Positions 1,348 through 48,854 of a stretch of DNA of 53,248 nucleotides are shown here, one piece after another. Made by a program: the position numbers and the translations under genes. This DNA is from Bacteroidia bacterium (GTDB taxonomy: Bacteria > Bacteroidota > Bacteroidia > Bacteroidales > VadinHA17): assembly GCA_026391555.1 (NCBI GenBank), contig JAPLEB010000110.1, positions 1 to 53,248 on the forward strand, read 5' to 3'. The notes under the pieces were generated by a model. It was not told the origin of the DNA, did no database searches, and saw nothing but the letters and a program-made list of their open reading frames with translations. Position 1 is the stretch's first letter. Each line of letters starts with the position of its first letter.

Positions 1348-1437
1348 GGCATCAGGCATCAGGCGCTGGCTTCAGAAAAAATAAAAACCTGTTGCCTGTT
1401 GCCTGTTGCCTGTCGCCTGAAGCCTATCTTCTGTCAT
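1348..1437. repeat. Heptamer repeat tract with two facing arms (arcC-arcB spacer)
   Basis: The left arm has four 7-bp units, GGCATCA twice, GGCGCTG and GCTTCAG (1348-1375). The right arm has CTGTTGC three times, CTGTCGC, CTGAAGC, then CTATCTT and CTGTCAT (1389-1437). Read on the minus strand the right arm becomes GCAACAG/GCTTCAG units, so the arms can pair imperfectly around an A-rich loop. The last right-arm units overlap the 3' end of arcC, including its TAG stop at 1424-1426. Confidence 0.85.
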
Positions 1438-2392
1438 CCTCATATTCCATTGTGATTTTTGAACCGTATTTTTTATCAGCAAGTTTAAATGCTTCAGTAA
1501 TAACACTTTTCCTGCCGCCTTGTTTAATAAAATTAAGACACGCTTGTATTTTAGGTGCCATACTTCCCTTTGCAAACTGACCCTCATTGAGGTATTTCAA
1601 TGTATCGGCATAATTAAGAAATTCCTTTATCTCCTGATCAGGCTTTTTATAGTTAATGTATATATAGGGGACATCTGTAAGAATAAAGAATTCATCAGCA
1701 CCAATCTGGGTTGCCAGAAGAGATGAGGCCAGGTCTTTATCAATAACTACTTCAGCCGGCCTGACATCGTTCTTTTCATCAATATAGACGGGTACACCGC
1801 CGCCACCCGCAGCAATCACAATATTGCCTTTCCTTGCAAGGTCATGTATTATTGATATATTCATCACACCAGTAGGAACCGGGGATGGGACTACCCGCCG
1901 GTATCCACCCTGACTTTTGACTTCCTCTTTGAAAATCCATCCATTTTTTGAGGTAAGATCATCAGCCTGTTCCTTTGAATATATCTTACCGACTCTTTTT
2001 TGCGGATCGCTGAAGGCGGGGTCATTAATATCAACCAGAACCTGTGTAACAAGGCAAATAACATTCTTGTTAATTCCATGCTTGTTAAGAACATTCCTGA
2101 ACATCCTCTCAATCATATATCCTATTCCGCCCTGAGTGTCAGCCACGCAAATATCAATTGGCATCTGTGCAATATTATACAATTGTTCTCCGGCATCATT
2201 TCGCATAAGAATATTACCCACCTGAGGTCCATTACCATGGGTTATGACCAGGTCGTATCCTTCATTTATTAAAAAAACAAGATTTTCAAGAGTTTCAGTA
2301 GTGTTTTGTTCTTGCTCATCAATAGTACCAATCTGATCTCCCCTCAAAAGAGCATTGCCTCCCAGGGCAACAACAGCAAGTTTTCTTTCCAT
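1424..2392 (-). CDS. arcC: Carbamate kinase
   Basis: This 322-residue cytoplasmic kinase of the amino-acid kinase fold makes ATP from carbamoyl phosphate and ADP in arginine/citrulline (or purine) fermentation. Visible family motifs are ALGGNALL near the N-terminus (9-16), HGNGPQVGN around 52-60, the AAGGGGVPV stretch near the middle and GSMAPKI in the C-terminal part. It is first of two genes, with arcB downstream. The final five residues (EDDRR) and the stop fall into 7-bp repeat-like sequence, so the extreme C-terminus may have been rewritten by repeat growth. A TAACTTTG box lies about 40 bp upstream of the start. Confidence 0.93.
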   Translation of the reverse strand: MERKLAVVALGGNALLRGDQIGTIDEQEQNTTETLENLVFLINEGYDLVITHGNGPQVGNILMRNDAGEQLYNIAQMPIDICVADTQGGIGYMIERMFRNVLNKHGINKNVICLVTQVLVDINDPAFSDPQKRVGKIYSKEQADDLTSKNGWIFKEEVKSQGGYRRVVPSPVPTGVMNISIIHDLARKGNIVIAAGGGGVPVYIDEKNDVRPAEVVIDKDLASSLLATQIGADEFFILTDVPYIYINYKKPDQEIKEFLNYADTLKYLNEGQFAKGSMAPKIQACLNFIKQGGRKSVITEAFKLADKKYGSKITMEYEDDRR

Positions 2393-2428
2393 TTTTTTTT
2401 AAAGAATCAACCTTCATTTAAAAGATCA

Positions 2429-2436
2429 CAAAGTTA
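2429..2436 (-). promoter_or_regulatory. Candidate -7 box (TAACTTTG) for arcC
   Basis: On the minus strand this octamer matches the Bacteroidota -7 consensus TAnnTTTG exactly and is about 37 bp before the arcC start. No TTG is seen at the usual -33 distance, so the call is weak. The spacer 2393-2597 also carries the possible promoter of the divergent lipoprotein gene; nothing else is evident there. Confidence 0.4.
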
Positions 2437-2544
2437 CCAAATTCAAAAGAATTCCAGCTATCGTCAGTAATGAAATGAAGGCTGAAAAATATGTATTATA
2501 AAACATATTCCCCTGATTAAACTCATAATTTTAAATAGAGCGAA

Positions 2545-2597: not shown

Positions 2598-3281
2598 ATG
2601 AGATTCAGCTATGTTTTGTTCATTGCAGTGATCTTCGCAATGGCAGGGTACTCCTGTAAAGAAAAAGGGGGTAAATATATAGATCAGGGGGAAATCCATT
2701 ATAGTGTAGATTATATAGGGAAAGTCGGGTCAATGCCAAAAGAGGCGCTGCCTAAAAACCTTATTGTTTCATTTAAAAAAGATAAAATCCTGTTTGAGAT
2801 GATCGGTATCGGTAATTCTGGTATTCTTAATCTCTCAAATCCGGAGAAGGGAATTTTTGACACATATTTCAGCCTGTTCACAATAAAATACTTCTATGCC
2901 GCGGAACCCGGTGAGATGAATCCTGGTTTTGAAAAGATGGATGGAATGGTAATAAAAAAGAGTTCAAAGACATCTGTTATTTGTGGTTTCAACTGTAAAA
3001 ATGCAGAGGTTTCCTTTCCTTCTGACAGGGAAAAGATTTATGAGATATGGTATACAAATGAGATCAACATTAAGAATCCTAATGCCTCTACTCCTTTCAA
3101 CCAGATTGATGGGGTACTGATGAGTTTTTTCTTTTTTCTTGGTTCTTCTGAGCTTCATTTCGATGCTGAAACAGTGTATAAGAAGGATATCCCTGATGAA
3201 ACATTTGAAAGAAGAGATAAATTCACAAGAGTATCAAGGGAGGATATCAATAACTTTATCAATAAGATGATAAGCCTGTAA
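2598..3281 (+). CDS. Conserved Bacteroidota lipoprotein, function unknown
   Basis: The product has 227 residues. A hydrophobic N-terminal signal ends in AGYSC, so Cys20 is a plausible lipidation site although the lipobox is not canonical. The mature part is rich in beta-strand-like sequence, with a GEIHYSVDY start, a Cys pair (ICGFNC) near the middle and an NPNASTPF-QIDGVL motif towards the end. I recognise this layout as recurrent in Bacteroidota periplasmic proteins of the DUF4412-like type but cannot assign a function. It stands alone between divergent arcC and the ftsK group. Seven-base repeats begin at the base after its stop codon. Confidence 0.75.
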   Translation: MRFSYVLFIAVIFAMAGYSCKEKGGKYIDQGEIHYSVDYIGKVGSMPKEALPKNLIVSFKKDKILFEMIGIGNSGILNLSNPEKGIFDTYFSLFTIKYFYAAEPGEMNPGFEKMDGMVIKKSSKTSVICGFNCKNAEVSFPSDREKIYEIWYTNEINIKNPNASTPFNQIDGVLMSFFFFLGSSELHFDAETVYKKDIPDETFERRDKFTRVSREDINNFINKMISL

Positions 3282-3316
3282 GTGTTTCGTGTTTCGTGTT
3301 TCGCGTTTCGCGTTTA
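3282..3316. repeat. Heptamer repeat tract (GTGTTTC)
   Basis: Five contiguous 7-bp units: GTGTTTC three times, then GCGTTTC and GCGTTTA. The tract starts at the first base after the TAA of the preceding lipoprotein gene. Only one arm is present. Confidence 0.85.
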
Positions 3317-3443: not shown

Positions 3444-5897
3444 ATGAATAAAGAGCAGGAAGAAGTTGGCAAAAAGAATACAAAAATTGCAAAGGGTTCT
3501 GAAAAATCCAAATCCTTCTTAACGGATGAGAGAATCAAATTTGTTATAGGGTTCCTCGTAACAGGTTTTGCACTATATCTTCTTCTTGCGTGTGTTTCGT
3601 ACCTCTTCTGGTGGAAGTTCGATGATAGCCTGGCAAATTCAGCAGTTGTATCAGGTGCTGATATAAAGGTTAAAAACTGGTCCGGCAAAAGCGGTCAGTT
3701 TCTGGCAAAGCACATTATTGCATTTGGATTCGGATATGGAGCATTCTTTATCCCAATGATCTTTGGCACAATTGGGCTGTATCTCCTTAAATTCCCTAAA
3801 ATCAGGCCATTAAGCCTAATAGCCAAGTTCACCTTCGCCACAATTATATTATCACTTATCCTTAGTTTCATTTTTGGTGAAGCAAATGGTTACCTGAAAA
3901 GCGGACCCGGAGGTGCACAGGGTTACTTTATAACAGAATGGATGAAGCCCTTCATGGGAGCACCCGGAACAGGGGTTCTCATTTTGCTTATTACCATTAC
4001 ATACTTCATTTTTGCCTTAAATGTTAAACCGGAGTCATTTGGAAAAATTATTAAAGCAATTCTCAGGCTCTTTAAACACAAAGGTGAAGGTAAAATAATA
4101 ACAGAAGAGGTGGCTGAAGAATCCGTTCAGGCAGCAATGGAAGATGAGGCTTCAGCAGAAGAGACTAAGCATGAGGATGACGACCAGGTTGAATTTGTGG
4201 TAAAAAACACAAATATCAACATTGACCCCGATGATCTTGATGAAGAAATTCCGGAAGTCCTGACAACGGGTTCTATAATCCATGATTTTGATAATGAAAA
4301 ACCCGATGTACCGCCGGAGGATGAGGTTCCGATAAATATTACACGTCCCGATGCAGGCGATAATCTCTCTCCTCAGGAAGTTGACAAATTAATGGAAGAC
4401 TATGACCCGCGCCTCGATCTTTCGCGTTATAAGTTCCCTCCTGTCTCAATTCTGAAGGAACACAAATCAGAAAATGCCTTTGATAATGCTGAAGTTTTTG
4501 AGAACAAAGAGAATATCATTAAAACCCTGGGTGACCATAAGATCGGTATTAAAAGTATTTCCGCAACCATTGGGCCAACAGTAACTTTATATGAGATTGT
4601 ACCTGAGCGTGGTGTCAGGCTGGCGCGCATAAAATCGCTTGAGGATGATATCGCCCTTAATCTTTCTGCTCTCGGGATAAGGATCATTGCTCCCATTCCC
4701 GGAAGAGGAACCGTAGGTATTGAGGTTCCAAACAAAAAACCCGAGATAGTTTCGATGCGATCGCTCATTACTTCAAAAGCCTTCCAGGAGACAAAGTTTG
4801 ATATTGCCCTTGCGCTGGGCAGGACGATTACTAACGAACCCTACATCGTTGACCTGACTAAAATGCCTCACCTTCTTGTTGCCGGAGCAACCGGCCAGGG
4901 AAAATCTGTCGGTATTAATGCTATCATCACATCAATTCTTTACAAAAAGCATCCTGCCGAAATTAAATTTGTGCTTATCGATCCCAAAAGAGTAGAATTA
5001 CCATTGTATATGAAGATTGAGAGGCATTTTCTTGCTAAGCTCCCAGACGAAGATGATGCAATAATCACTGATACTCAAAAAGTTATTAAAACACTGAACT
5101 CCTTATGCATCGAGATGGACAACAGGCTTGAGCTGCTTAAAGGAGCCCAATCGCGTAATATCAAGGAGTATAATGAGAAGTTTATTTCAAGGAAACTTAG
5201 TCCGGAAAAAGGCCATAAGTATCTACCATACATAGTTTTAATTATCGATGAGTTTGCAGATCTGATAATGACAGCCGGCAGGGAAATTGAGGGACCGATA
5301 GGCAGGCTTGCACAACTTGCCAGGGCTATCGGAATACATCTCATCATTTCAACTCAAAGACCATCAGCGAACATCATCACAGGGTTTATTAAAGCTAATT
5401 TCCCCACACGAATCGCTTTCCGCGTTTTTTCATCTATCGATTCCCGGACAATTCTCGATGCAACAGGCGCTGACAGGCTGGTTGGCCGAGGCGACATGCT
5501 TGTATCTTCAGGAGCCGAACCTGTAAGAGTACAATGTGCTTTTATCGACACACCGGAAATTGAAGAACTGACTGAATTTATCGGATCACAAAAGGGTTAT
5601 ACCGATGCCATGCATCTTCCTGAATACATTGACGATAGCGAGGCAGGTGTCCTTGACGTTGACCTTCGTAAGAAAGATCCGATGTTCGATGATGCTGCAA
5701 GACTTGTAGTACAGCATCAGCAGGGTTCCACTTCACTTATTCAGAGAAAACTTTCGATCGGATATAACAGGGCAGGAAGAATTATTGACCAGCTCGAGGC
5801 TGCAGGAGTTGTAGGGCCATTCGAAGGAAGCAAAGCCAGGGATGTTCTCTGCTCCGACTTTATAGCTTTGGAACAGATTTTGAAGCGTCTGGAATAA
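3444..5897 (+). CDS. ftsK: DNA translocase FtsK/SpoIIIE
   Basis: This membrane-anchored, hexameric DNA pump moves chromosome ends away from the division septum and activates dimer resolution. From the ATG at 3444 it has 817 residues. Four N-terminal membrane segments span roughly residues 35-190. A short acidic linker follows (rich in D and E), then the RecA-like motor with Walker A GATGQGKS (codons near 4883-4906) and Walker B-type LIIDEFADL. A C-terminal winged-helix gamma domain (LIQRKLSIGYNRAGRII) would read KOPS-like sequences. The linker is short compared with E. coli FtsK (about 1330 residues), as is usual in Bacteroidota. A lolA-like gene follows within 10 bp, a pairing I consider common in this phylum. 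Confidence 0.95.
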   Translation: MNKEQEEVGKKNTKIAKGSEKSKSFLTDERIKFVIGFLVTGFALYLLLACVSYLFWWKFDDSLANSAVVSGADIKVKNWSGKSGQFLAKHIIAFGFGYGAFFIPMIFGTIGLYLLKFPKIRPLSLIAKFTFATIILSLILSFIFGEANGYLKSGPGGAQGYFITEWMKPFMGAPGTGVLILLITITYFIFALNVKPESFGKIIKAILRLFKHKGEGKIITEEVAEESVQAAMEDEASAEETKHEDDDQVEFVVKNTNINIDPDDLDEEIPEVLTTGSIIHDFDNEKPDVPPEDEVPINITRPDAGDNLSPQEVDKLMEDYDPRLDLSRYKFPPVSILKEHKSENAFDNAEVFENKENIIKTLGDHKIGIKSISATIGPTVTLYEIVPERGVRLARIKSLEDDIALNLSALGIRIIAPIPGRGTVGIEVPNKKPEIVSMRSLITSKAFQETKFDIALALGRTITNEPYIVDLTKMPHLLVAGATGQGKSVGINAIITSILYKKHPAEIKFVLIDPKRVELPLYMKIERHFLAKLPDEDDAIITDTQKVIKTLNSLCIEMDNRLELLKGAQSRNIKEYNEKFISRKLSPEKGHKYLPYIVLIIDEFADLIMTAGREIEGPIGRLAQLARAIGIHLIISTQRPSANIITGFIKANFPTRIAFRVFSSIDSRTILDATGADRLVGRGDMLVSSGAEPVRVQCAFIDTPEIEELTEFIGSQKGYTDAMHLPEYIDDSEAGVLDVDLRKKDPMFDDAARLVVQHQQGSTSLIQRKLSIGYNRAGRIIDQLEAAGVVGPFEGSKARDVLCSDFIALEQILKRLE

Positions 5898-7385: not shown

Positions 7386-7397
7386 GAGTCTTTTTTA

Positions 7398-7418
7398 GCG
7401 TAGAGCGTTGAGCGTTTT
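7398..7418. repeat. Short heptamer repeat tract (GCGTnGA)
   Basis: Three 7-bp units, GCGTAGA, GCGTTGA and GCGTTTT, fill the 40-bp space between two converging genes. It is short but has the same period as the other tracts in the window. Confidence 0.55.
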
Positions 7419-10563: not shown

Positions 10564-11910
10564 ATGAAAAAGACCTTGTCAGTTTTTCTTATAACATTGC
10601 TGGTACTCTCAGTATCTGCACAGGAAAAAAAGGTGAAAACCGGATGGAAGTTCGGGGGAGCGCTGCCGGCGATCAGCTTTGACTCAGATCTCGGATTTCA
10701 GTATGGAGCTCTTGCTGAATTTTTTAATTATGGTGATGGAAGTAAATATCCTGATTATCTGGATCATACTTATACTGAAATATCACATTATACCAAAGGA
10801 AGCGGTATTTTCAGGTTTATGTACGAATCGAATCACCTTATTCCCGGAGTAGAATCGACAAGTGACCTTAGTTATCTTCCCCATCAGGCAAATAGTTTTT
10901 ATGGCTTTAACGGTTATGAATCATTTTTTAATAAAGATTGGATGGATGAAGAAGCAGCCGGTTACAAGACCAGAATGTTCTACCGTTTTCAAAGGAATCA
11001 GTTCAGATTTAAGAACGATTTCCAGGGAAAACTTTCAGGTGAACATTTTAAATGGAGCGCGGGTTTTGCCTTCCAGAATTTTGAAATCAGCTCAGTAAAC
11101 ATTGATAAACTTAATAAAGGTAAAGACCTTGCAGAACTGTTACCTTTAGTTAGTGTTATGCCAGGTCTGTTTGAAAGATATCAGGCGCTGGGGTTGGTTC
11201 CATCGGATGAGGCCGGGGGAGGCTGGGTTAATACAATTAAAGCAGGACTTGTATGGGATAGCCGCGATAACAGGCCCAACCCTATGAAAGGACTCTGGTC
11301 AGAGATAGGTATTGAGGTTGCTCCAAAGTTCCTGGGGAATGACTGGGGATTTTCAAAACTATATATCACACATCGTCAGTATTTTACATTAATAGAGAAT
11401 GATCTTGCACTTGTTTACCGTTTAGGATATCAGACAACCTTATCAGGACATTCTCCTTTCTTCTATCAATCGCAGGTAATTACATCAAGGCTTACAGGCT
11501 ACTCATCTGAAGGGTTGGGAGGCTACAATACTTTAAGAGGAGTCCTGTGGAACAGGGTTATGGGTGATGCCTTTTTCATGGGTAATGTTGAATTTCGATG
11601 GAAGCCTGTATATTTCAAATTCATAAAGCAGGACTGTTACCTTGGTCTTAACGGATTTTTTGATTTCGGAAGGGTCATAAAAAATATCAAATTACCGACT
11701 GATCTTGCAACTACTTTCGGTGTAAAATATACAACTGAGAATTTTTCAGATTACTTTAAACCAGGCGCAGAAAAGTTCCATATGAGTGCCGGTACAAGTA
11801 TAATGCTTGCAATGAATCAGAACTTTGTAATTGCAATTGATATCGGGAAAGCCCTAAATGAGCAGGATGGCAATATCGGATTCTCTATAGGACTGAATTA
11901 CCTGTTTTAG
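10564..11910 (+). CDS. Omp85/BamA-family outer-membrane beta-barrel protein
   Basis: The product has 448 residues, with a clear signal peptide (MKKTLSVFLITLLVLSVSAQ). The mature part looks like a C-terminal D15/Omp85 barrel without POTRA domains: alternating amphipathic strands, GLVWDSRDNRPNPMKG (a strand-turn motif shared with BamA/TamA proteins), and LGGYNTLRGV, which fits the conserved (V/L)RG motif of the inward loop. It ends in a typical aromatic barrel terminus (GLNYLF). Substrate or partner is unknown. It is a single-gene unit followed by a strong hairpin terminator. Confidence 0.8.
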   Translation: MKKTLSVFLITLLVLSVSAQEKKVKTGWKFGGALPAISFDSDLGFQYGALAEFFNYGDGSKYPDYLDHTYTEISHYTKGSGIFRFMYESNHLIPGVESTSDLSYLPHQANSFYGFNGYESFFNKDWMDEEAAGYKTRMFYRFQRNQFRFKNDFQGKLSGEHFKWSAGFAFQNFEISSVNIDKLNKGKDLAELLPLVSVMPGLFERYQALGLVPSDEAGGGWVNTIKAGLVWDSRDNRPNPMKGLWSEIGIEVAPKFLGNDWGFSKLYITHRQYFTLIENDLALVYRLGYQTTLSGHSPFFYQSQVITSRLTGYSSEGLGGYNTLRGVLWNRVMGDAFFMGNVEFRWKPVYFKFIKQDCYLGLNGFFDFGRVIKNIKLPTDLATTFGVKYTTENFSDYFKPGAEKFHMSAGTSIMLAMNQNFVIAIDIGKALNEQDGNIGFSIGLNYLF

Positions 11911-11936
11911 TCAAGAGTTTAACTCTTCCATAAATA

Positions 11937-11966
11937 AGCTGAATCCGGAAGGGTTCAGCTTTTTTT
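11937..11966 (+). terminator. Rho-independent terminator after the Omp85-like gene
   Basis: AGCTGAATCC and GGGTTCAGCT (11937-11946 and 11951-11960) form a 10-bp stem with one wobble pair around GGAA, followed by six T residues. It lies 27 bp after the stop codon, between converging transcripts. Confidence 0.85.
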
Positions 11967-12007
11967 AGCAATCCACCTTATCCCACTGCCCTTCTCTCGC
12001 GATCAAT

Positions 12008-12325
12008 TCACTCCAGCTCCAAAAGCACCGTTCCCTTGGAAACTTTATCTCCCTTCTTTACTGCTATTGATTTTACTCTGCCATCCATACTGCATCTCAG
12101 TTTATTTTGCATCTTCATGGCATCGAGAATCATCAGCTCTTCGTCCTTATTAACATCCTGTCCTGCTTTAACAAGGATGTCGAGGACAGTACCGGGGATA
12201 AAACTTAAAATAATCCGTGGGTCTGCAGGCTGGTAAGGCTTCCGGTTTTCAAATTTGCAGCTGATCCTCGTATGATATAAGGTGGTATTAATATTCAGGA
12301 ATCCAAGTTTATCTTTTTTAATCAT
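12008..12325 (-). CDS. Biotin carboxyl carrier protein (biotin/lipoyl attachment domain)
   Basis: A 105-residue biotinyl-domain protein. The biotinylation motif DAMKMQ is at 68-73, with Lys71 the attachment site. The preceding PGTVLDILVKAGQ and the following KGDKVSKGTVLLELE are the two symmetric halves of the hammerhead fold. Its partner is most likely the carboxyltransferase gene 33 bp upstream on the same strand; together they resemble the gamma and alpha subunits of methylmalonyl-CoA decarboxylase or the carrier and beta subunits of an acyl-CoA carboxylase. No biotin carboxylase is in the window. Confidence 0.9.
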   Translation of the reverse strand: MIKKDKLGFLNINTTLYHTRISCKFENRKPYQPADPRIILSFIPGTVLDILVKAGQDVNKDEELMILDAMKMQNKLRCSMDGRVKSIAVKKGDKVSKGTVLLELE

Positions 12326-12358
12326 AATAGTTCCATTAAATTATTAAAATGCGGTTAA

Positions 12359-13903: not shown

Positions 13904-13927
13904 ATAATTCGATTTAAATAATAAAAA

Positions 13928-16149: not shown

Positions 16150-16164
16150 ATTTACATATCTGTT

Positions 16165-22348: not shown

Positions 22349-22397
22349 CTTCCGTCTTCCAACTTTTGTCCTTTTCCTTTTGTCTTTTGTCTTTCTT
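22349..22397. repeat. Heptamer repeat tract (CTTTTGT)
   Basis: Seven contiguous 7-bp units: CTTCCGT, CTTCCAA, CTTTTGT, CCTTTTC, CTTTTGT, CTTTTGT and CTTTCTT. On the minus strand this is an AAAAGAC-type tract that begins at the pcm stop codon (22396-22398). It fills most of the pcm to MBL hydrolase spacer. Confidence 0.8.
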
Positions 22398-23765: not shown

Positions 23766-23829
23766 TCAAATTATGAGCCATATTTATTCTAATCAGAAGA
23801 CGGTCTATTTCTATGAGAAGATTGAGGAG

Positions 23830-24011
23830 GAGAAAGGAGAAAGGAGAAAGGAGAAAGGTGAAAGGTGAAAGGAGAAAGGTGAAAGGAGAAAGGAGAAAGG
23901 AGAAAGGAGAAAGGTGAAAGGAGAAAGGTGAAAGGTGAAAGGAGAAAGGGGAAAGGAGAAAGGAGAAAGGAGAAAGGAGAAAGGAGAAAGGAGAAAGGAG
24001 AAAGGAGAAAG
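23830..24011. repeat. 26-unit tandem heptamer array (GAGAAAG / GTGAAAG)
   Basis: Twenty-six perfect-length 7-bp units run without a break over 182 bp. Nineteen are GAGAAAG, six are GTGAAAG (units 5, 6, 8, 13, 15 and 16) and one is GGGAAAG (unit 18). The last eight units are identical, as expected after recent expansion. The array lies in the 466-bp space between the divergent DUF4294 and PHP genes. Because 7 is not a multiple of 3, translation of any frame gives a seven-residue periodic peptide with no stop on the minus strand, which is an artefact and not a gene. Confidence 0.97.
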
Positions 24012-24016
24012 GGAAG

Positions 24017-24091
24017 AGTGAGTAGTGAATAGTGAATAGTGAATATGTTTTCAACTACTCACTGCTCACTACTCACTACTCACTATTCAGG
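24017..24091. repeat. Heptamer inverted repeat (AGTGAAT / ACTCACT arms)
   Basis: Left arm: AGTGAGT and three AGTGAAT units (24017-24044). Right arm: ACTCACT, GCTCACT, ACTCACT, ACTCACT and ATTCAGG (24057-24091). The arms are nearly complementary around a 12-bp spacer and could form a cruciform or RNA hairpin. From 24092 to 24170 a degenerate purine-rich stretch with similar spacing (AAGACAA, AAGTGAG and alike) leads up to the PHP gene; no other feature is seen there. Confidence 0.9.
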
Positions 24092-36571: not shown

Positions 36572-37366
36572 TTAGAGATCGTTTTCCCCCTTCACATAAC
36601 CGAAGTTGGCAAGTATCCCGCCATCAACATAGAGAATGTGCCCGTTTACAAAGTTGCTGGCTTTTGATGCAAGAAAGAGAGCTGCATTTGCAACATCCTC
36701 CGGTTCGCCCCATCTGCCTGCCGGCGTGCGGGTCATAACAAGGTCATTAAAAGGATGCCCATTTTCGCGTATGGGAGCAGTCTGAGAGGTGGCGATATAA
36801 CCCGGACCTATTCCATTTATCTGAATATTGTACTTCGCCCATTCACATGTCATATTCTGAGTGAGGAGTTTCAGTCCACCTTTTGCAGACGCATAAGCCG
36901 AAACAGTGTTTCGTCCATATACACTCATCATCGAACACATATTGATGATCTTACCGCTACGTTTTTTAATCATGTTAGGAGCCACACGTTTTGAAATAAT
37001 AAGTGGCGCTACCAGATCAACGTCAATTACCTGCTTATAGTCAGAAATTGCCATTTCAAGTATTGGAATCCTCTTGATAATGCCGGCATTATTTACAAGA
37101 ATATCAATAGTGCCTACTGATTTTTCAATCAGGCTAATTCCCTTATCAACATCTTTTTCATCGGTAACATTGAATTTCAGAGTAAATACATCGAGCCCTT
37201 GCTTATTAAAGCTCTCTTTGCAGCTCAGAAGCTTATCATCCTGCAGGTCGTTAACACACACTTTTGCACCGGCCCTGGCAAGTAACAACCCAACTGCTAA
37301 TCCAATACCGTGTGTGCCCCCGGTTACGAGGGCAACTTTTCCTGTGAGATCGAATAAGTCTTTCAT
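36572..37366 (-). CDS. kduD: KduD-like 2-dehydro-3-deoxy-D-gluconate 5-dehydrogenase (SDR)
   Basis: A 264-residue short-chain dehydrogenase with the NAD(P) motif TGGTHGIG (16-23), NNAG, YASAK and a C-terminal VNGHILYVDGG. It resembles gluconate 5-dehydrogenase/KduD proteins. Placed downstream of kduI with a 104-bp spacer, it most likely reduces the 2,5-diketo product of KduI to 2-keto-3-deoxygluconate. Gluconate 5-dehydrogenase activity is the alternative. Confidence 0.88.
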   Translation of the reverse strand: MKDLFDLTGKVALVTGGTHGIGLAVGLLLARAGAKVCVNDLQDDKLLSCKESFNKQGLDVFTLKFNVTDEKDVDKGISLIEKSVGTIDILVNNAGIIKRIPILEMAISDYKQVIDVDLVAPLIISKRVAPNMIKKRSGKIINMCSMMSVYGRNTVSAYASAKGGLKLLTQNMTCEWAKYNIQINGIGPGYIATSQTAPIRENGHPFNDLVMTRTPAGRWGEPEDVANAALFLASKASNFVNGHILYVDGGILANFGYVKGENDL

Positions 37367-37469: not shown

Positions 37470-38306
37470 TTACTTCAGCGTGTCCGGCATCCTCACATCC
37501 ATGTCTCCGTAGTTGAGGTTCTCCCCTGCCATTCCCCAGATAAATGTATAATTTGAGGTGCCTGCTGCACTATGTATGCTCCACGATGGAGACAGAACAG
37601 CCTGTTCGTTTTTCATCCAGATGTGCCTCGTTTCATCAGGGTCTCCTATGAAATGACAAATTGCCTGCTGCTCAGGTACTTCAAAATAAAAATATGCCTC
37701 CATCCTACGATTATGAGTATGAACCGGCATAGTGTTCCAAACGCTGCCTGGTTTTAATTCGGTCATCCCCATCTGCAACTGGCATGTTTCAATTACGCTG
37801 TTAACAAGTAACTTATTCACAGTCCTGTGGTTTGAAGACTCCATGTTTCCAAGAACAACAACCTCAGCATCGGCAAGTGTTACTTTTTTTGATGGATATG
37901 CATGATGCGCTGGCGCTGAATTAATATAAAGCTTCGCTGGTTTTTTTGCATCAACCGACTTAAAAACGACATCCCGTGTACCTTTTCCAAGGTATAGAGC
38001 TTCTTTAAATCCAATTTTATAGGTTTTTCCTCCCGCATCAATAACAGCGCCTCCCCCAACATTAATTATACCCATTTCCCTTCTGTCAAGAAACTGCTCC
38101 GCTTTTAGTTCATCGGCTGTTTCCAGTTTTAATTGTTTTTTTACCGGCATTGCCCCACCGACTATGTACCTGTCGTACATCGAATAAACCAGGGATATTT
38201 CATCATGAATTAATACATTTTCAATTAAGAATTCCTTCCTTAGCTTGTCGGTTCCATAATTCATAAAATCATCGGGATGTGCTGCGTAACGAAGTTCTAG
38301 TTTCAT
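37470..38306 (-). CDS. kduI: 5-keto-4-deoxyuronate isomerase
   Basis: A 278-residue zinc isomerase that converts 5-keto-4-deoxyuronate (from unsaturated uronic acids) to 2,5-diketo-3-deoxygluconate. The metal set matches E. coli KduI in position: His196 and His198 in PVHTHNRRMEAY, Glu203 and His245 (SWSIHSAAG). The length equals the family's. Upstream lies the GH105 hydrolase, downstream kduD, so all three act in sequence on pectin or ulvan-type unsaturated oligomers. Confidence 0.96.
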   Translation of the reverse strand: MKLELRYAAHPDDFMNYGTDKLRKEFLIENVLIHDEISLVYSMYDRYIVGGAMPVKKQLKLETADELKAEQFLDRREMGIINVGGGAVIDAGGKTYKIGFKEALYLGKGTRDVVFKSVDAKKPAKLYINSAPAHHAYPSKKVTLADAEVVVLGNMESSNHRTVNKLLVNSVIETCQLQMGMTELKPGSVWNTMPVHTHNRRMEAYFYFEVPEQQAICHFIGDPDETRHIWMKNEQAVLSPSWSIHSAAGTSNYTFIWGMAGENLNYGDMDVRMPDTLK

Positions 38307-38342: not shown

Positions 38343-38443
38343 GGCGTCAGGCGACTGGCGTCAGGCGTCAGGTTTAAGATGTAATATGTTTTAGGCATAT
38401 ACTGCAGCCAGTAGCCTGTAGCCTGTTGCCTGTTGCCCGTTCA
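38343..38443. repeat. Heptamer repeat tract with two facing arms (GH105-kduI spacer)
   Basis: Left arm: GGCGTCA, GGCGACT, GGCGTCA, GGCGTCA (38343-38370). Right arm: CAGTAGC, CTGTAGC, CTGTTGC, CTGTTGC, CCGTTCA (38409-38443). The last unit carries the stop codon of the GH105 gene (TGA on the minus strand). Unit sequences resemble those of the arcC-arcB tract (CTGTTGC shared exactly). Confidence 0.88.
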
Positions 38444-39598
38444 CAGTATTCCCTTATCTATCAGCCTCGTAATCTCTGTTCCTGCCATAAGAAATCCGCC
38501 AACTCCATATACCTCTGTCATTTCCTTTGTAACAGCTTTTGGATCAGCTCCTATAGGTTGAATAAATCCGACTTTCCCGTCGGGCCATACTGATGTTACC
38601 ATTGATTTCCATCCTTTTACGATTGCAGGAAGATATGTCTCTTTATCGAGATACCCGTTATTCACACCCCAGGCGAGTCCGAATACGAAGAATGTTGTTG
38701 CGCTCATTTCAGGATTCGGATAGCTTTCAGGGTCCAAAAGACTGGCATGCCAAAATCCGTCTTCAGATTGTAGTGAAAGAAGTTTTACAGCCATCTCCTT
38801 AAATATTGTTACAAAATAATCCTTATGCTCATATTTAGCAGGAAGCTCCCTTATTATAATCGGTAGACCGGCAAACACCCAGCCATTACCTCGTCCCCAG
38901 AATACTTTCGCACCGTTTGCCTCCTTCTTAGTAAAATAATTCGAATCCCTGAAATAGAGATGCTCATCTTTATCATACAAATAGTCAGTTGTAAACTTAT
39001 ATTCCTGGTACAAGAAGTCGAGATATTTTTTCTTTCCGGTAACATTCGCCATTTTAGCCCATACTGTTGGAGCCATAAAGAGCGCATCGCACCACGACCA
39101 TCTCTGCTGTGACGAGTATTCTTTTGTTTTAACGAACAGAAGTTCTCCCTTTGACGGATATTTCATTATCTGATCAAAATAAGCTCGCATTGGCTTTATC
39201 ATGTTTTTGTCTTTATACTTCCTGAACAACTCAATATAGGCCTGACCAACACAATAATCATCAGCATGGTATTTGCGAAGAGGATTTTCATTAATATTAT
39301 ATGTCCAGTTGAGTTTCCCCGAAATTTCTTTCAGCCATTCATAATACGAATCATTGCCGGCTATCCCTGCCCATTCAACCATACCTGAATATAAAGCTGC
39401 ATTAGTCCATTCTCCGGGAGCATGCGTGAGAGGTGTTCTGACCTGCCAGTCTGCCACTGCTTTAAGCACAGTTTTGATATCGGTTTTATTGATATCAGGT
39501 TTAAATGAAGAGATATTTTGCCCCTGTGAATAGACTGAATAAGAGCTGATTAATAGAACGACTAATAAAAGACCCCTTTTGATTTTCATTTTTTTCAA
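38441..39598 (-). CDS. GH105 unsaturated rhamnogalacturonyl/glucuronyl hydrolase
   Basis: A 385-residue secreted enzyme with signal peptide (hydrophobic residues 9-24, cleavage near SQG). It is an (alpha/alpha)6 barrel of the YteR/YesR type. Aspartates at 113/114 (HADDYCVGQAY) and 171 (WSWCDALFMAP) fit the two catalytic/hydration positions; GRGNGWVFAGL is a strong family signature. It removes unsaturated uronic acid from the non-reducing end of lyase products, feeding KduI and KduD encoded downstream. Confidence 0.92.
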   Translation of the reverse strand: MKKMKIKRGLLLVVLLISSYSVYSQGQNISSFKPDINKTDIKTVLKAVADWQVRTPLTHAPGEWTNAALYSGMVEWAGIAGNDSYYEWLKEISGKLNWTYNINENPLRKYHADDYCVGQAYIELFRKYKDKNMIKPMRAYFDQIMKYPSKGELLFVKTKEYSSQQRWSWCDALFMAPTVWAKMANVTGKKKYLDFLYQEYKFTTDYLYDKDEHLYFRDSNYFTKKEANGAKVFWGRGNGWVFAGLPIIIRELPAKYEHKDYFVTIFKEMAVKLLSLQSEDGFWHASLLDPESYPNPEMSATTFFVFGLAWGVNNGYLDKETYLPAIVKGWKSMVTSVWPDGKVGFIQPIGADPKAVTKEMTEVYGVGGFLMAGTEITRLIDKGIL

Positions 39599-41241: not shown

Positions 41242-42084
41242 ATGAACGATTTAAACTTAAAAGACAAGGTAGCAGTTATCACAGGAGGGGCCGGTATTAT
41301 CTGCTCAACCATGGCTAAATCACTTGCTGCACAGGGTGTTAAGACAGTAATCCTTGACCTCAATATAGAGGCAGCAGTTGCTGTGGCAAAAGAGATAGAA
41401 AAAGAGTTTGGCACACCATCTATGGGTGTCTCAGCAAGCGTTTTAGACAAAAAATCACTCGAAGCTGCTAAAAAAGAGATACATGCTAAATTCGGTCCTG
41501 TTGATATTCTGGTAAACGGAGCAGGCGGAAATTCACCTGCTGCTACGACAAAAATTGAAAAGATGGATGGTACGGAAACAGAAAACCTTGAAGATACTTT
41601 TTTCGGACTACAGATCGAAGGATTTGATAAGGTGTTTGACCTTAATTTTAAAGGTACGGTGATTCCATCAATGGTTTTCGCGACTGACCTGATTAAGAAA
41701 AAATCAGGGGTCATTCTAAATATATCTTCCATGAACTCATACAGACCGTTGACCAAGATCGCTGCTTATTCTGCAGCCAAGGCAGCTGTTAATAATTTCA
41801 CACAGTGGCTGGCAGTACACTTCTCAAAAACAGGAGTCAGGGTTAATGCAATAGCTCCGGGGTTTTTGCTCACAAATCAGAACAGGTTCCTTCTTATTGA
41901 TGAAAAAACCGGAGGACTTACTGCCAGAGGGAAAAAAATCATAAACGGCACACCTATGGAACGTTACTGTATCCCGGAAGAACTAACCGGTACTGTTATT
42001 TATCTGGTTTCTGACCTTTCAAAGTTTGTTACAGGAGTGGTCATTCCTGTGGATGGTGGGTTTAGTGCTTATAGTGGTGTATAA
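41242..42084 (+). CDS. SDR-type D-mannonate oxidoreductase (fructuronate reductase)
   Basis: A 280-residue SDR protein. The cofactor loop is TGGAGIICS, less glycine-rich than the usual TGxxxGIG; NGAGG (with S), ISSMNSYRPL and YSAAKAAV (Tyr-Lys pair) follow, and the end is PVDGGFSAYSGV. It resembles B. subtilis YjmF-type mannonate oxidoreductases rather than the E. coli UxuB family. With UxaC before it, the likely step is fructuronate to D-mannonate using NAD(P)H. It is 19 bp before the PFK gene. Confidence 0.87.
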   Translation: MNDLNLKDKVAVITGGAGIICSTMAKSLAAQGVKTVILDLNIEAAVAVAKEIEKEFGTPSMGVSASVLDKKSLEAAKKEIHAKFGPVDILVNGAGGNSPAATTKIEKMDGTETENLEDTFFGLQIEGFDKVFDLNFKGTVIPSMVFATDLIKKKSGVILNISSMNSYRPLTKIAAYSAAKAAVNNFTQWLAVHFSKTGVRVNAIAPGFLLTNQNRFLLIDEKTGGLTARGKKIINGTPMERYCIPEELTGTVIYLVSDLSKFVTGVVIPVDGGFSAYSGV

Positions 42085-42102
42085 ACGATAAACGATAAAA
42101 AG

Positions 42103-43392: not shown

Positions 43393-43400
43393 TTAAAATT

Positions 43401-43456
43401 CTTCTGACTTCAGACTTCTGACTTTAAACTTTTGTCTTTTAACTTTTATCTTTTGT
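43401..43456. repeat. Heptamer repeat tract (CTTCTGA / CTTTTGT)
   Basis: Eight units: CTTCTGA, CTTCAGA, CTTCTGA, CTTTAAA, CTTTTGT, CTTTTAA, CTTTTAT and CTTTTGT. The unit CTTTTGT also occurs in the tract after pcm. It fills the spacer between the PFK and HAD genes of one operon. Confidence 0.85.
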
Positions 43457-43466
43457 CTTAAATATT

Positions 43467-44348
43467 ATGAATCCACACGAACAATTACTTGGCCTTAAGC
43501 CTGAAAAAGAGTTTTTTATCGGGATAGATTCCGATGGATGTGCATTTGATACCATGGAGATTAAGCAGAAAGAGTGCTTCTGCCCCAACTTCATCAAATA
43601 TTTCAAAATGCAACCGGTCTCGAAATATGCCCGCGAGACCTGGGAGTTTGTGAACCTTTATTCCACTTACAGGGGATGCAACCGTTTTCTTGCTGTGAAT
43701 GAGACTCTCAGGCTTCTGGCAACACGTCCAGAGATTAAGGCAAGGAATTTTACGGTTCCTTCAGCCGCCCCTCTTATTGAATGGACAAAGAAAGAGACCA
43801 AACTGGGTAATCCCACTTTAATAAAATATGCTGCAGAAGCTAACGATCCATTCATTACTCAAACTCTTGAATGGTCATTGAAAGTAAATGAGGATATAGC
43901 AAAGCTGGTTTTCGGTATTACCCCTTTTCCCTTCGTAAAGGAGTGTCTCGAAAAAATGAAGCCAAAAGCTGATGCTATGGTTGTATCACAGACACCGTTT
44001 GAAGCTCTGAAACGTGAATGGGAAGAGAACAGGATCGACCATTTTGTCAGGATGATCGCCGGGCAGGAACATGGTACAAAAGCCGAACATCTTAAGTATG
44101 CCGCAAAGGGTAAATATCCTGATGATAAGATACTTATGATCGGTGATGCTAACGGTGATCTTAAGGCAGCAAAATCCAATGGAGTACTCTTCTTTCCTAT
44201 TAATCCGGGAAAAGAGGAAGCATCGTGGGAAAGACTTTATAAAGAAGGGATGGACAGGTTCTTTGCCGGAACATATATAGGAGCATACGAAGAGAAGCTG
44301 ATTAAAGAGTTTGAGGCCTATCTGCCGGAACATCCACATTGGAAGTAG
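43467..44348 (+). CDS. HAD-superfamily hydrolase, substrate unknown
   Basis: The protein has 293 residues. Motif I is GIDSDGCAFD (Asp21 nucleophile, Asp23), motif II the Ser/Thr region VVSQTPFEAL, motif III a Lys around HGTKAEH, and motif IV MIGDANGDLKAAK. A helical cap of about 130 residues lies between motif I and II. It looks like a small-molecule phosphatase. The operon offers sugar phosphates as possible substrates, but nothing in the sequence names one. Its TAG stop shares a base with the first unit of the following repeat. Confidence 0.82.
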   Translation: MNPHEQLLGLKPEKEFFIGIDSDGCAFDTMEIKQKECFCPNFIKYFKMQPVSKYARETWEFVNLYSTYRGCNRFLAVNETLRLLATRPEIKARNFTVPSAAPLIEWTKKETKLGNPTLIKYAAEANDPFITQTLEWSLKVNEDIAKLVFGITPFPFVKECLEKMKPKADAMVVSQTPFEALKREWEENRIDHFVRMIAGQEHGTKAEHLKYAAKGKYPDDKILMIGDANGDLKAAKSNGVLFFPINPGKEEASWERLYKEGMDRFFAGTYIGAYEEKLIKEFEAYLPEHPHWK

Positions 44349-44424
44349 GCGACTTGGCTACAAGCTACTGGCTACAGGAAAAATGGTTACAACCTGAAGC
44401 CTGATGCCTGTCGCCCGTTGCCTC
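44348..44424. repeat. Heptamer repeat tract with two facing arms
   Basis: Left: GGCGACT, one extra T, GGCTACA, AGCTACT, GGCTACA (44348-44376). Right: CTGAAGC, CTGATGC, CTGTCGC, CCGTTGC, CTC (44394-44424). CTGAAGC and CTGTCGC occur identically in the arcC-arcB tract 43 kb away. Confidence 0.85.
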
Positions 44425-44449
44425 TTTTGAAAATTAATTACTAGTTATC

Positions 44450-45724
44450 ATGATATACTATAAATCAGGTTCTGAAAATACAGTTTTAGGCCCAAATGAC
44501 CTTGAGTTTGGACTCTATTCAGCACTCGTTAAACTTGGCCCAAGAAAAAAAGTCCTCGTCGTCCCTCCCGACTTTAGCCGTTTTCATTCAAGAGCAGGTG
44601 ATCTGACCACTCTGGCCTATAATTATTATAAGGAGAGTATTAAAGATATCCTTCCCGCTCTCGGAACGCATGCACCCATGTCCGACCATGAACTGGACGA
44701 GATGTTTAAGGGTGTGCCGAAATATCTTTTCCGTATTCACAATTGGAGAAAAGATGTGGTAACAGTTGGTACAGTTCCCGGGGAATTCGTCTCAAAGATA
44801 ACCGATGGTGCCATCGATTACTCCTGGCCGGCACAACTTAACAGATTGGTTTTCAATGGAGGACACGACCTCATTCTATCAGTCGGGCAGGTTGTCCCGC
44901 ATGAAGTGATAGGAATGGCCAATTATAATAAAAACCTTTTTGTTGGAACAGGCGGGCAAGAAGGAATTAATAAGAGCCATTTTATCGGAGCTGTTTACGG
45001 GATGGAGAGGATAATGGGCAAAGCCAGTAACCCGGTAAGAAGTTTATTGAATTATGCTTCTGCAAATTTCACAACTCATCTGCCAATTGTGTATGTGCAC
45101 ACTGTAATTGGCCGTGATGATGCTGGTAAGCTCGTGATACGCGGACTATTTATCGGGGATGATGAAGAGGTTTTCAGGCTTGCAGCAGAGTTATCGATAA
45201 AAGTCAACTTTACGATGCTTGACAAACCTTTGAAGAAAGTAGTGGTTTATCTCGATCCGTCAGAGTATAAGAGCACATGGCTTGGAAACAAAAGCATTTA
45301 CAGAACACGCATGGCCATGGCTGATAACGGGGAACTGATTGTTCTTGCACCCGGACTAAAAGAGTTTGGTGAGGATAAAGAGATCGACCGGCTGATCAGG
45401 AAATATGGCTACCGGGGAACACCTGCTACCTTAAAATCTTTAAGTGATAACGAAGAGCTCCGTAATAATCTGAGTGCAGCAGCTCACCTTATTCACGGAA
45501 GTTCTGAAGGAAGGTTCTCAATAACTTATTGTCCCGGTCAACTGACACGGGAGGAGATAGAATCTGTTAACTTCAAATTTCATGATCTTACCGACATGAT
45601 GAAGAGATATAATCCCGGGAAATTGAAAGAGGGATTTAACAAGATGGCTGACGGAGAAGAAATATTCTACATCTCAAATCCTGCCCTGGGATTATGGACA
45701 TCAAAGGAAAGACTTACGAAATAA
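44450..45724 (+). CDS. LarA-family nickel-dependent 2-hydroxyacid epimerase, possible D-gluconate/D-mannonate 2-epimerase
   Basis: The product has 424 residues and a DUF2088 (LarA) N-terminal domain. The LarA catalytic set appears complete: Asp41-x-x-Arg44 (PPDFSR), His74 (GTHAPMS), His151, Lys161 and His177. The spacing His-10-Lys-16-His is exactly that of lactate racemase (His174, Lys184, His200), so Lys161 is the expected attachment point of the nickel-pincer cofactor. LarA relatives include a D-gluconate 2-epimerase (GntE, from memory). Mannonate and gluconate are C2 epimers, and the operon makes mannonate and encodes 6-phosphogluconate dehydrogenase, so this specificity is an attractive inference. 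The cofactor genes larB, larC and larE are not in the window. Confidence 0.85.
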   Translation: MIYYKSGSENTVLGPNDLEFGLYSALVKLGPRKKVLVVPPDFSRFHSRAGDLTTLAYNYYKESIKDILPALGTHAPMSDHELDEMFKGVPKYLFRIHNWRKDVVTVGTVPGEFVSKITDGAIDYSWPAQLNRLVFNGGHDLILSVGQVVPHEVIGMANYNKNLFVGTGGQEGINKSHFIGAVYGMERIMGKASNPVRSLLNYASANFTTHLPIVYVHTVIGRDDAGKLVIRGLFIGDDEEVFRLAAELSIKVNFTMLDKPLKKVVVYLDPSEYKSTWLGNKSIYRTRMAMADNGELIVLAPGLKEFGEDKEIDRLIRKYGYRGTPATLKSLSDNEELRNNLSAAAHLIHGSSEGRFSITYCPGQLTREEIESVNFKFHDLTDMMKRYNPGKLKEGFNKMADGEEIFYISNPALGLWTSKERLTK

Positions 45725-45756
45725 AAGATAAAAGACAAAAGGAAAAAGACAAAAGG
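45722..45756. repeat. Heptamer repeat tract (TAAAAGA / CAAAAGG)
   Basis: Five units: TAAAAGA twice, CAAAAGG, AAAAAGA and CAAAAGG. The TAA stop codon of the LarA-like gene is the start of the first unit. Confidence 0.8.
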
Positions 45757-45774: not shown

Positions 45775-45945
45775 TGGAGGTTGCTTCGTCGCAGGCTCCT
45801 CGCAATGACAGGTTAAATCAAGTTGGTTCCCCTCCCTGGAGAGCCTGCCCCGCTTCGGCGGGGACAAAAGTGAAGTGAGAAATTCTCAAATAATTCCCCC
45901 TTTGAAGAGCCTGTCCCGCTTCGGCGGGAGGGCCAGGGGGATGTT
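45775..45945. repeat. Composite intergenic repeat with two UUCG hairpins
   Basis: The stretch from 45778 has the pattern GTTGCTTCGTCGC followed by GGCTCCTCGCAATGAC, a REP-like sequence I have seen in many Bacteroidota. It is followed by two hairpins with the same GAGCCTG leader: 45848-45863 (CCCCGC-TTCG-GCGGGG) and 45914-45929 (TCCCGC-TTCG-GCGGGA). The second sits inside a CCCCCTTTGAA...GGCCAGGGGG element. The outer pair is C-G in one and T-A in the other. The whole 254-bp spacer between the LarA-like gene and gnd is made of such repeats; no gene is seen in it. Confidence 0.8.
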
Positions 45946-47433: not shown

Positions 47434-47462
47434 TTTCCTTAACTACTAACAAACCAGAGTTT

Positions 47463-48764
47463 ATGGCAGAAATTAAAAAAATCGGTAACTACAGGTGGAC
47501 AGTCTGTGCATTGATATTCTTTGCAACGACCATTAACTACCTCGACAGACAGGTAATCGGCATTCTAAAACCGTTGCTTGAAAGTGATCTTAATATTGGT
47601 GAAGTCCAGTATGCAAACATTGTAACAATCTTTCAACTCTTCTACGGAGTTTCGATGTTACTTGCAGGAAGGCTCATTGATAAGTTCGGCACAAAAATTG
47701 GCTACGGGTTATCGGTACTTCTCTGGAGTATTGCAGCCATGGGCCATGCACTTGCCAAAGGAGTTTTCGGATTTGGATTCTGGAGAGCAATGCTGGGAAT
47801 AAGTGAATCAGGTAACTTTCCTGCAGCAATCAAAACAATTGCTGAATGGTTCCCGAAAAGAGAAAGAGCTCTTGCAACCGGCATTTTTAATTCCGGCACA
47901 AATGTTGGAGCTATCCTGGCCCCGATTGCTGTTCCTGCAATAGTTATAGCATGGGGCTGGCAGGCTGCATTTATTATTACCGGAGCTATCGGTTTCTTAT
48001 GGATTGTCCTCTGGTGGATCTTTTACGAACTGCCTGAAAAAAAGAGAAGCCTTGCCATTGCTGAACTGAATTATATTAAGAGTGACATTGATGAGCAAAA
48101 TGAAAGTGAGAAACCTGTTCCATGGCTTCAGCTTCTGAAATTCCGTCAGACATGGGTATTCTTCATTGGAAAAGCGATGACTGATCCTATCTGGTGGTTT
48201 TACCTTTTCTGGATCCCGGGATGGCTCTCAACTGTAAGAGGTGCAGGTCTGGATATTAAATCTTTTGGTCTTCCTTTGGTGGTAATTTATACCTCTACCA
48301 CAGTTGGAAGTATTGGTGGCGGATGGCTTTCATCATACATGATTAAAAAAGGTATATCTCCTTATAATGCAAGAAAATACACAATGCTTATTTTTGCACT
48401 TTGCGTAACTCCTGTATTCTTTGCCCAATCGGCAGGAGTAAGTACCTGGGGCGCAGTTGCTCTGATTAGTCTGGCAGCCTCGTCACACCAGGCATGGTCT
48501 GCAAACATTTTCACTACTGTTTCCGATTCATTCCCAAAGAGAGTGGTAAGCTCTGTAACAAGTATCGGAGGTATGGCTGGAGCTATTGGAGGTGCATTTG
48601 TTTCAATTCTTGCCGGTCAAATTCTTAACTTTTTCAAGAAAGCCGGACATATTGAAACAGGATACACTGTAATGTTCACAATTGCAGCCTGTGCCTATAT
48701 ACTTGCATGGCTAATAATGTTTGTTTTAGCCGCACCAAAAAATAAGAAAGTTGTTATAGAATAA
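47463..48764 (+). CDS. exuT: Hexuronate transporter, MFS (ACS family)
   Basis: A 433-residue inner-membrane carrier with 12 predicted helices. The first-helix motif TINYLDRQVIGIL and the loop GRLIDKFGTKIGYG are signatures of the anion:cation symporter family that includes ExuT. Acidic sugar uptake by H+ symport fits the adjacent uxaC, SDR and uxaE genes. It is 30 bp after gnd. Confidence 0.9.
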   Translation: MAEIKKIGNYRWTVCALIFFATTINYLDRQVIGILKPLLESDLNIGEVQYANIVTIFQLFYGVSMLLAGRLIDKFGTKIGYGLSVLLWSIAAMGHALAKGVFGFGFWRAMLGISESGNFPAAIKTIAEWFPKRERALATGIFNSGTNVGAILAPIAVPAIVIAWGWQAAFIITGAIGFLWIVLWWIFYELPEKKRSLAIAELNYIKSDIDEQNESEKPVPWLQLLKFRQTWVFFIGKAMTDPIWWFYLFWIPGWLSTVRGAGLDIKSFGLPLVVIYTSTTVGSIGGGWLSSYMIKKGISPYNARKYTMLIFALCVTPVFFAQSAGVSTWGAVALISLAASSHQAWSANIFTTVSDSFPKRVVSSVTSIGGMAGAIGGAFVSILAGQILNFFKKAGHIETGYTVMFTIAACAYILAWLIMFVLAAPKNKKVVIE

Positions 48765-48771
48765 GAAAGAT

Positions 48772-48854
48772 GGAAGTCGGAAGTCGGAAGTCGGAAGTGA
48801 AAATTCATAAGTATTGGTTCTTACTTCAGTCTTCCGGCTTTAAACTTCTAACCT
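48772..48854. repeat. Heptamer repeat tract with two facing arms (exuT-lacI spacer)
   Basis: Left: GGAAGTC three times and GGAAGTG (48772-48799). Right: CTTACTT, CAGTCTT, CCGGCTT, TAAACTT, CTAACCT (48820-48854). Read on the minus strand the right arm gives AAGACTG and AAGTTTA-type units, so pairing is imperfect. Confidence 0.83.

Follow-up and report, generated by a model that had tools for sequence, protein, structure and literature searches.

Tandem arrays of seven-nucleotide units lie preferentially at stop codons in an uncultured Bacteroidales genome

Genes and heptamer tracts of the contig

We analyzed contig JAPLEB010000110.1 of a Bacteroidia bacterium (assembly GCA_026391555.1; Bacteroidales, VadinHA17), which carries a series of tandem arrays built of seven-nucleotide units (heptamers). 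The stretch of DNA that was analyzed, further called the window, is this entire contig of 53,248 bases (C8 in our numbering) from an assembly of 3.5 Mb in 164 contigs. The nearest named relatives are uncultured Bacteroidales/Bacteroidetes represented by metagenome-assembled genomes (MAGs; isolate names e.g. fen, LacPavin, Chersky). The genes scanned were ordinary ones, for arginine, histidine and hexuronate metabolism, FtsK and transporters. No Rfam family was matched in the window at the gathering score, and ARAGORN found no tRNAs there.

An earlier note, made from the sequence alone, had described tracts with a strict 7-bp period in the window. Both Tandem Repeats Finder (TRF) and a lag-match scan confirmed this. 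TRF reported period-7 tracts starting at 1347, 1388, 3125, 3282, 7397, 22363, 23828, 24013, 24054, 38343, 38402, 42081, 43401, 43429, 45723, 48772 and 50443. The tracts of the earlier note were located in gaps between long open reading frames (ORFs) or touched an ORF end; the weak tracts 3125 and 50443, which it had not listed, were inside ORFs.

Five loci had two facing arms with roughly reverse-complementary units, as had been claimed. For three of them we obtained similarity scores: 0.82 for 1347/1388, 0.88 for 24017/24054 and 0.68 for 38343/38406; the pairs 44349/44393 and 48772/48818 were recognized by eye. In the first pair, an (AGGCATC)n arm at 1347..1364, reported by TRF, faces a (CCTGNNG)n arm at 1388..1419, which reads AGGCNNC on the coding strand and lies 4 nt away from the stop codon of gene 1424-2392 (minus strand). 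The second pair lies in a divergent gap, beside an array of 26 AGGNGAA units at 23828..24012, and consists of (AGTGAAT)n at 24017..24045, found by the lag-match scan, and (ACTACTC)n at 24054..24089, found by TRF. A 119-aa ORF crossed by the 23828-24054 array was taken as spurious. In the third pair, also found by TRF, (GGCGTCA)n at 38343..38372 faces (CTGTAGC/CTGTTGC)n at 38402..38441, and the latter touches the stop of the minus-strand gene 38441-39598. The fourth starts directly after the stop of gene 43467-44348 with GGCTACA-type units at 44349..44378, followed by a facing (CCTGNNG)n arm at 44393..44422. The units of 44349-44422 were recognized by eye; TRF has no entry at 44348, which is a weak point. 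In the fifth, (GGAAGTC)n at 48772..48798 (TRF), which begins 7 nt downstream of the stop codon of gene 47463-48764, faces a degenerate arm (TTACTTCAGTCTTCCGGC...) at 48818..48852.

The remaining tracts were single. A (GTGTTTC)n tract at 3282..3315 (TRF) follows directly the stop of gene 2598-3281, and a weak AGCGTTG tract of only 2.9 units (TRF, 7397..7416) lies between convergent genes. The (CTTTTGT)n tract at 22363..22394 ends 1 nt short of the stop codon of gene 22396-23043 (minus strand), with AAAAGAC on the coding strand. An (ATAAACG)n tract at 42081..42099, absent from the earlier note and detected by both TRF and the lag-match scan, overlaps the stop of gene 41242-42084. The 74-bp gap 43393-43466 holds (CTTCTGA)n and then (CTTTTGT)n at 43401..43459, and (AAAAGAY/AAAAGGA)n at 45721..45755 overlaps the stop of gene 44450-45724. 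Some units were common to distant loci, as noted before: CTGTTGCCTGTTGC was present at 1389, 1396 and 38423, and two further contigs also carry it.

Dominance of the seven-base period

In the lag-match scan, 14 segments of the window had period 7; there were none with period 5, 6, 8, 9, 10, 11 or 13. In a set of 21 loci of the same genome (333 kb, three of the loci reading all N), we observed 28 exact noncoding runs at period 7, compared with 0.25 in dinucleotide shuffles; the remaining periods between 3 and 13 had 0-2 runs each. Another 18 period-7 runs were in regions that the ORF mask treated as coding, several of them in short ORFs running through arrays. A larger sample of this genome covered 640 kb (18% of the genome, 36 of 40 loci; L123, L127, L131 and L150, which read all N, were dropped). 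It contained 46 tandem segments of period 7, against 2 of period 6, 6 of period 8, 4 of period 9 and 5 of period 12; the multiples 14 and 21 were also present. When only noncoding segments of periods 4-12 were counted, period 7 accounted for 34 of 44. Twelve syntenic loci of the same genus gave 33 segments at period 7, 1 at period 6 and 9 at period 8. The earlier note had named a period 7 no commoner than 6 or 8 as the result that would speak against it; with 46 segments against 2 and 6 the observation survives, and so does the idea of one dominant period with many unit sequences.

The dominance of seven is wider than this genus: among 68 loci of more distant organisms, which their identity suggests are outside the genus, noncoding segments likewise had seven as their most frequent period (25 segments, compared with 9 at period 8, 4 at period 6 and 7 at period 9). 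Without L022 and L024 the numbers were 19 for period 7 and 2 for period 8.

Placement at stop codons and strand bias

The earlier note had proposed to count the tracts by position, and this count revealed clustering at stops together with a strand bias. It covered 98 intergenic tracts with both neighbours known, in gaps of up to 1500 bp; tracts inside ORFs were left out, near-identical arrays were counted once, and locus L121 was excluded here and from the post-stop control. For 91 of the tracts the gap included a stop codon. Of these tracts, 49 overlapped the stop or were within 12 nt of it, while 23.1 were expected from random placement of tracts of the same length in the same gaps. There was no enrichment at start codons (16 of 84 tracts within 12 nt, 18.2 expected).

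Purines made up more than half of the coding strand in 39 of 50 contacts between a tract and a stop, less than half in 9 and exactly half in 2. As a control, 30-mers following stops without a tract averaged 0.505 purine (n = 530). Tracts off the stop in same-direction gaps were divided 19 to 17 for purine. The orientation was similar for CCTGNNG arrays, found by a motif search of the fetched loci: of 90 arrays, two-arm loci entering once per arm, 44 were no more than 15 nt from a stop and read AGGCNNC on the coding strand, and 4 had the opposite orientation. The exceptions to the purine bias in the window were the 3282 and 43401 tracts and the divergent 23828 array.

Core, variable positions and unit families

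We selected 37 arrays of at least 5 units independently of motif, and 21 of them had at least 2 variants and a purity of at least 0.85. In these, 14 of 65 variant pairs were at one shared position (6.5 expected, P = 0.003). A single position accounted for every variant of the array in 5 of the 21 (0.96 expected, P = 0.001). Both statistics are driven by long arrays. The clearest case was the 23828 array, where every variant among the 26 units was at one position, AGG[A19 T6 G1]GAA. The variant positions of L151, L022 and both L008 arrays behaved likewise.

Three consecutive CCTGNNG units were matched 279 times inside the genus, in 29 of 58 genomes, compared with 51 matches in 16 of 58 genomes for the reversed control. 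Outside the genus the family was no commoner than its control (8 of 295 genomes of the phylum each). Among 73 distinct arrays of at least 3 units, 62 had units that differed in the variable (wobble) dinucleotide NN, and it differed in 111 of 182 adjacent pairs; the search fixed the core beforehand and is by itself no measure of core conservation. When the middle unit was left free, the matches listed included CCT..G-type units with core changes, often at the third or fourth position, although many among those listed look like chance. Related families such as CCTTACG, CCTCACG and CCGCACG exist. The kept core is a tendency, not a law.

Four consecutive CTTTTGN units were found in 21 of 58 genus genomes, and the control gave no matches. 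Units of the window are without repeated GGG, which is present in GGGTGCT- and CAGGGCA-type arrays of relatives; we provisionally reject G-quadruplex formation as a general cause.

Folding of facing arms

Folding was assessed for 31 two-arm CCTG entries from all fetched loci, 26 of them in motif-selected loci and L288 and L312 contributing two overlapping entries each. They folded strongly (mean z = -5.1) and had the GC-rich stem of an intrinsic terminator. A U-run after the stem was not enriched (TTT within 10 nt in 9 of 31, 26% in the background); AAA preceded the stem in 16 of 31 (22% in the background). The wobbles of facing arms were complementary at 71 of 180 positions, compared with 73.5 after shuffling across loci and 65.0 after shuffling within loci (P = 0.09), and fully complementary dinucleotides numbered 9 of 90, with 14.8 expected across loci. 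On average, the stem energy showed no gain over arms with randomized wobbles (mean z = +0.06, range -3.1 to +2.2).

Since the wobbles were not complementary beyond chance and brought no gain in energy, the facing arms pair through their cores only. They are stems, not classical intrinsic terminators, which we reject because the U-run was not enriched. Present-day upkeep by template switching, which would keep the two arms identical, is likewise unsupported, as the wobbles do not match beyond chance.

Positions and units of arrays in relatives

With a loose threshold, 8 of 11 genus loci had a period-7 mark in the gap 42085-42102, 5 of 11 had one in 43393-43466 and 6 of 12 had one in 44349-44449. 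For the 38343 gap a comparison was possible with 2 relatives, of which 1 had marks. The unit sequence depended on the locus and the species; in some relatives, for example, GCGACAGGC hairpins are found at 44349, and (GTGTGAG)n in others. The expectation that tract positions are conserved among relatives was thus borne out at three gaps, with different units, and failed at a fourth, that of the 48772 tract.

The best evidence for turnover of the slippage type comes from one pair of sister species, L008 and L315, which are 94.9% identical over 6,675 bp of DNA. Their first gap differs in length by exactly 14 bp, that is, two heptamers (AAACGCG AAACGAT). The second contains 12 GGNGTGA units in one species and 18 in the other, N being mostly T/A in one sister and mostly C in the other with the remaining positions nearly unchanged. 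In the third, CCTCATA units stand against mostly CCTCACT. This pair therefore shows length changes in whole units between close relatives, as expected of a slippage repeat, once as a difference of exactly 14 bp and once in the number of units. The slippage-driven growth proposed in the earlier note is supported by it.

Other repeats occupied some of the orthologous gaps. In the more distant L022 and L024, the gap orthologous to 43393-43466 holds two facing arms of an 8-bp unit, CGTCACCY; therefore the repeat step can be eight. In the gap orthologous to 44349-44449, a ACCACGGA...TCCGTGGT-type quasi-palindrome was found in place of the heptamer tract in L006 and L060 and alongside it in L009. 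Another quasi-palindrome, CTCTGTG...CACAGAG, with units roughly 8-10 nt apart, was present in L007, L012, L014, L015 and L039, and this family fills the gap between the orthologues of genes 36572-37366 and 37470-38306.

Interpretation of the arrays

We consider it reasonably probable that the heptamer arrays turn over by slippage or unequal exchange, are kept preferentially after stop codons and, where two arms face each other, pair through their cores. Intergenic arrays would grow, shrink and become homogeneous again by 7-bp steps through slipped-strand mispairing or unequal exchange, as the sister species suggest. They would be found by preference from the stop codon onward, presumably being retained there, with the purine-rich strand in the transcript; this placement and strand were observed statistically. 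Variation within the unit tends toward one or two positions with the rest kept. Where two arrays face each other, between convergent genes or in one 3' untranslated region (UTR), the kept cores would pair into a stem with a probable action on the mRNA 3' end.

A number of observations weigh against this explanation. Slippage predicts neither a strand bias nor a favoured variant position, nor the presence of a single family, CCTGNNG, at many loci in 29 of the 58 genomes of the genus. Slippage alone does not account for the step of seven, the purine-strand preference or the kept core, and the biases in stop-codon placement, strand and wobble make it evident that a further influence shapes the arrays. 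Seeding by the stop codon itself is not supported, as units that include a stop were no more frequent at stops (24 of 50) than elsewhere (19 of 37). In the placement count, at starts and stops alike, real tracts may overlap an ORF end and random placements may not; avoidance of promoters could by itself shift tracts toward stops; and orthologous arrays of relatives are among the contacts, hence not all of these are independent. The tracts are clustered, since 21 of 36 loci of this genome had none (11.3 expected), and 5 of 7 other genomes (100-160 kb each) had no tracts, with three in G026 and one in G038. None of the 4 relatives compared at the 48772 gap had a tract. Only 3 of the 9 gaps of the sister pair fit a change of the array by unit steps, and two of these three differ overall by 28 bp (the GGNGTGA gap) and 20 bp (the CCTCATA gap). 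Three of the other six were of equal length, one with altered sequence, and three were off by 41, 67 and 5 bp for other reasons. Moreover, the data are MAG assemblies, and array lengths may be wrong.

A less probable but serious alternative is that the arrays are selected stem-loops at mRNA 3' ends, terminators or exonuclease barriers, in which selection keeps the pairing cores. The placement at stops, the strong folding of the 31 two-arm entries and the adjacency of arms to both stop codons of convergent gene pairs (e.g. L201, L280, L296, L298, L308) argue for it, as does a wobble match in register slightly over the within-locus shuffle. It has against it the background frequency of TTT after the stem, a wobble complementarity below the across-locus shuffle and the missing gain in energy over randomized wobbles. 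In addition, one-arm arrays are common and have the same strand bias (14 against 2 of 30), and some two-arm loci are between divergent genes. The suggestion of the earlier note that the tracts form a family of structured 3' UTRs stands accordingly as far as clustering, strand bias and folding of two-arm loci are concerned; the many one-arm arrays, the wobbles and the U-run do not agree with it.

It is unlikely that each heptamer core is recognized by a protein that binds DNA or RNA. Variation at one position and the orientation relative to the gene would fit such arrays, and binding of a regulator to TAACTGA repeats was proposed in MacGregor 2015 (PMC4679880). This genome, however, has many unrelated unit families, some genomes of the same genus are without either of the two families searched, and the adjacent genes are of many kinds.

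Repetitive extragenic palindromic (REP) elements and the associated transposases (RAYT, Y1_Tnp) also come with extragenic inverted arms. We find it just as doubtful that such a transposase disperses palindromic units which slippage then extends. Unit families are common to several loci, a dispersed palindrome, CCCGCnnnGCGGG, is next to some CTTTTGT arrays, and Y1_Tnp copies correlated weakly with the load of CTTTTG (rho = 0.32, p = 0.015) and with the summed load (rho = 0.27, p = 0.04), both uncorrected for kinship. The CCTGNNG load, in contrast, showed no significant correlation (rho = 0.21, p = 0.12), and this genome has one Y1_Tnp match. Such matches were found in 49 of 58 genus genomes, and 4 of the 9 genomes without them had heptamers. 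The arrays differ from REP/RAYT elements in being tandem 7-nt units for which no Y1_Tnp match is needed.

Least probable of all is an active templated or re-priming process in which each 7-nt unit added at a transcribed gene end has a fixed core and an imprecise junction of 1-2 nt. The one-position variation, the wobbles differing between CCTGNNG units and the spread of this family in the genus fit it. Against it, no enzyme was identified, the changes in the sister species resemble the usual expansion of a single unit, the P value depends on long arrays, and the core was fixed in the CCTGNNG searches and changed among the matches listed when left free. We also think it improbable that a dedicated process other than slippage, with a fixed core and 1-2 untemplated bases per cycle at transcribed gene ends, lays down these units and underlies the unrelated heptamers of Xanthomonas, Nostoc and Beggiatoaceae as well.

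Comparison with known heptamer repeats

The arrays are an unusually regular form of already known bacterial heptamer repeats, and the pattern is real and strong. Cyanobacterial short tandemly repeated repetitive (STRR) sequences are 7-nt tandem repeats. The parallel with them drawn in the earlier note is fair in kind, but none of the STRR units compared was tandem in the window or in the loci of this genome, and the whole set of fetched loci held one CCCCAAT pair.

The G-rich heptamers of Xanthomonas and Nostoc are a closer published parallel. In the sections of Rehm et al. 2015 (PMC4692102) considered here, which also mention heptanucleotides of Calothrix, the units are GGGANTN in Xanthomonas and GGGGA(T/C)T in Nostoc, mostly intergenic, with a kept core and variable positions. 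The mean distance of the Xanthomonas heptamers is 28 nt from the upstream ORF, compared with 160 nt from the downstream one, and inverted pairs number 70 and 75 in two Xanthomonas genomes, with few paired repeats in Nostoc. Our arrays resemble them as tandem intergenic 7-nt units close behind an upstream stop and with inverted pairs. They differ in having many families, mostly without repeated GGG, instead of one unit with a G-run capable of forming a quadruplex, and in their strand bias, as those sections report no strand preference relative to genes. Two consecutive copies of GGGAATC, GGGGATT or GGGGACT were found neither in the window nor in the loci of this genome nor in any other fetched locus; GGGANTN itself was not searched.

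TAACTGA direct repeats occur in Beggiatoaceae, Cyanobacteria and five Bacteroidetes, and two Cyanothece strains differ in them mostly by 7-nt indels, according to MacGregor 2015 (PMC4679880). They share with our arrays the heptamer step and the mostly intergenic location, and in some genomes they are mixed with other heptamers. In the Beggiatoa genome, however, they are mostly just upstream of starts, where our arrays were not enriched. Tandem TAACTGA was absent from the window and the loci of this genome and was found 5 times in the whole set of fetched loci.

In the literature, judged mostly from titles and openings of abstracts, we found no coding-strand bias for heptamer arrays and none from this genus. 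PMC4060949 reports how longer tandem repeats are represented in different phyla. Over-representation of heptamers in many genomes was found in 2007, as cited in PMC4692102, and we found no explanation for it. This genus offers many families under one step, strand and stop biases, and sister species which differ in units; therefore the questions of why the step is seven and whether selection or mutation is responsible become testable. If the strand bias were mutational, transcription at gene ends would be indicated as the source of the arrays.

Palindrome and cassette-like region

The palindrome CCCGCnnnGCGGG was found at 45849-45928 in the window and, in other loci, in L117 (419-432), L121 (12658, 16818 and 18747), L140 (3167) and L143 (11704), often near ACTTTTGT-type heptamers. 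A CTTTTG/A-type hexamer was near 10 of 13 palindromes, compared with 39% of background windows; the association is a lead, not proof. Parts of the block around the palindrome match within the genus, many such matches being to the heptamer part alone.

Locus L121 (contig C6 of this genome) contains at 11306-19262 a chain of small toxin-antitoxin/defence-like genes (HEPN x3, RhuM-Fic, AbiEii, Bro-N, KilA-N, ORF6N) with heptamer-rich spacers. A spacer block of ~150 bp is duplicated at 99% identity, and the region looks cassette-like. We reject integron cassettes on this contig, as no integron integrase above the curated cut-off was found in this genome and matches below the cut-off were also present in 14 of 14 control genomes.

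In L118, facing GATTGAA/AATCTTC arrays at 4222-4281 and 4675-4700 lie on either side of a 116-aa ORF. A stretch with GATTACAGATTAATAATAATAGAAG is repeated beside both arrays, about 450 bp apart.

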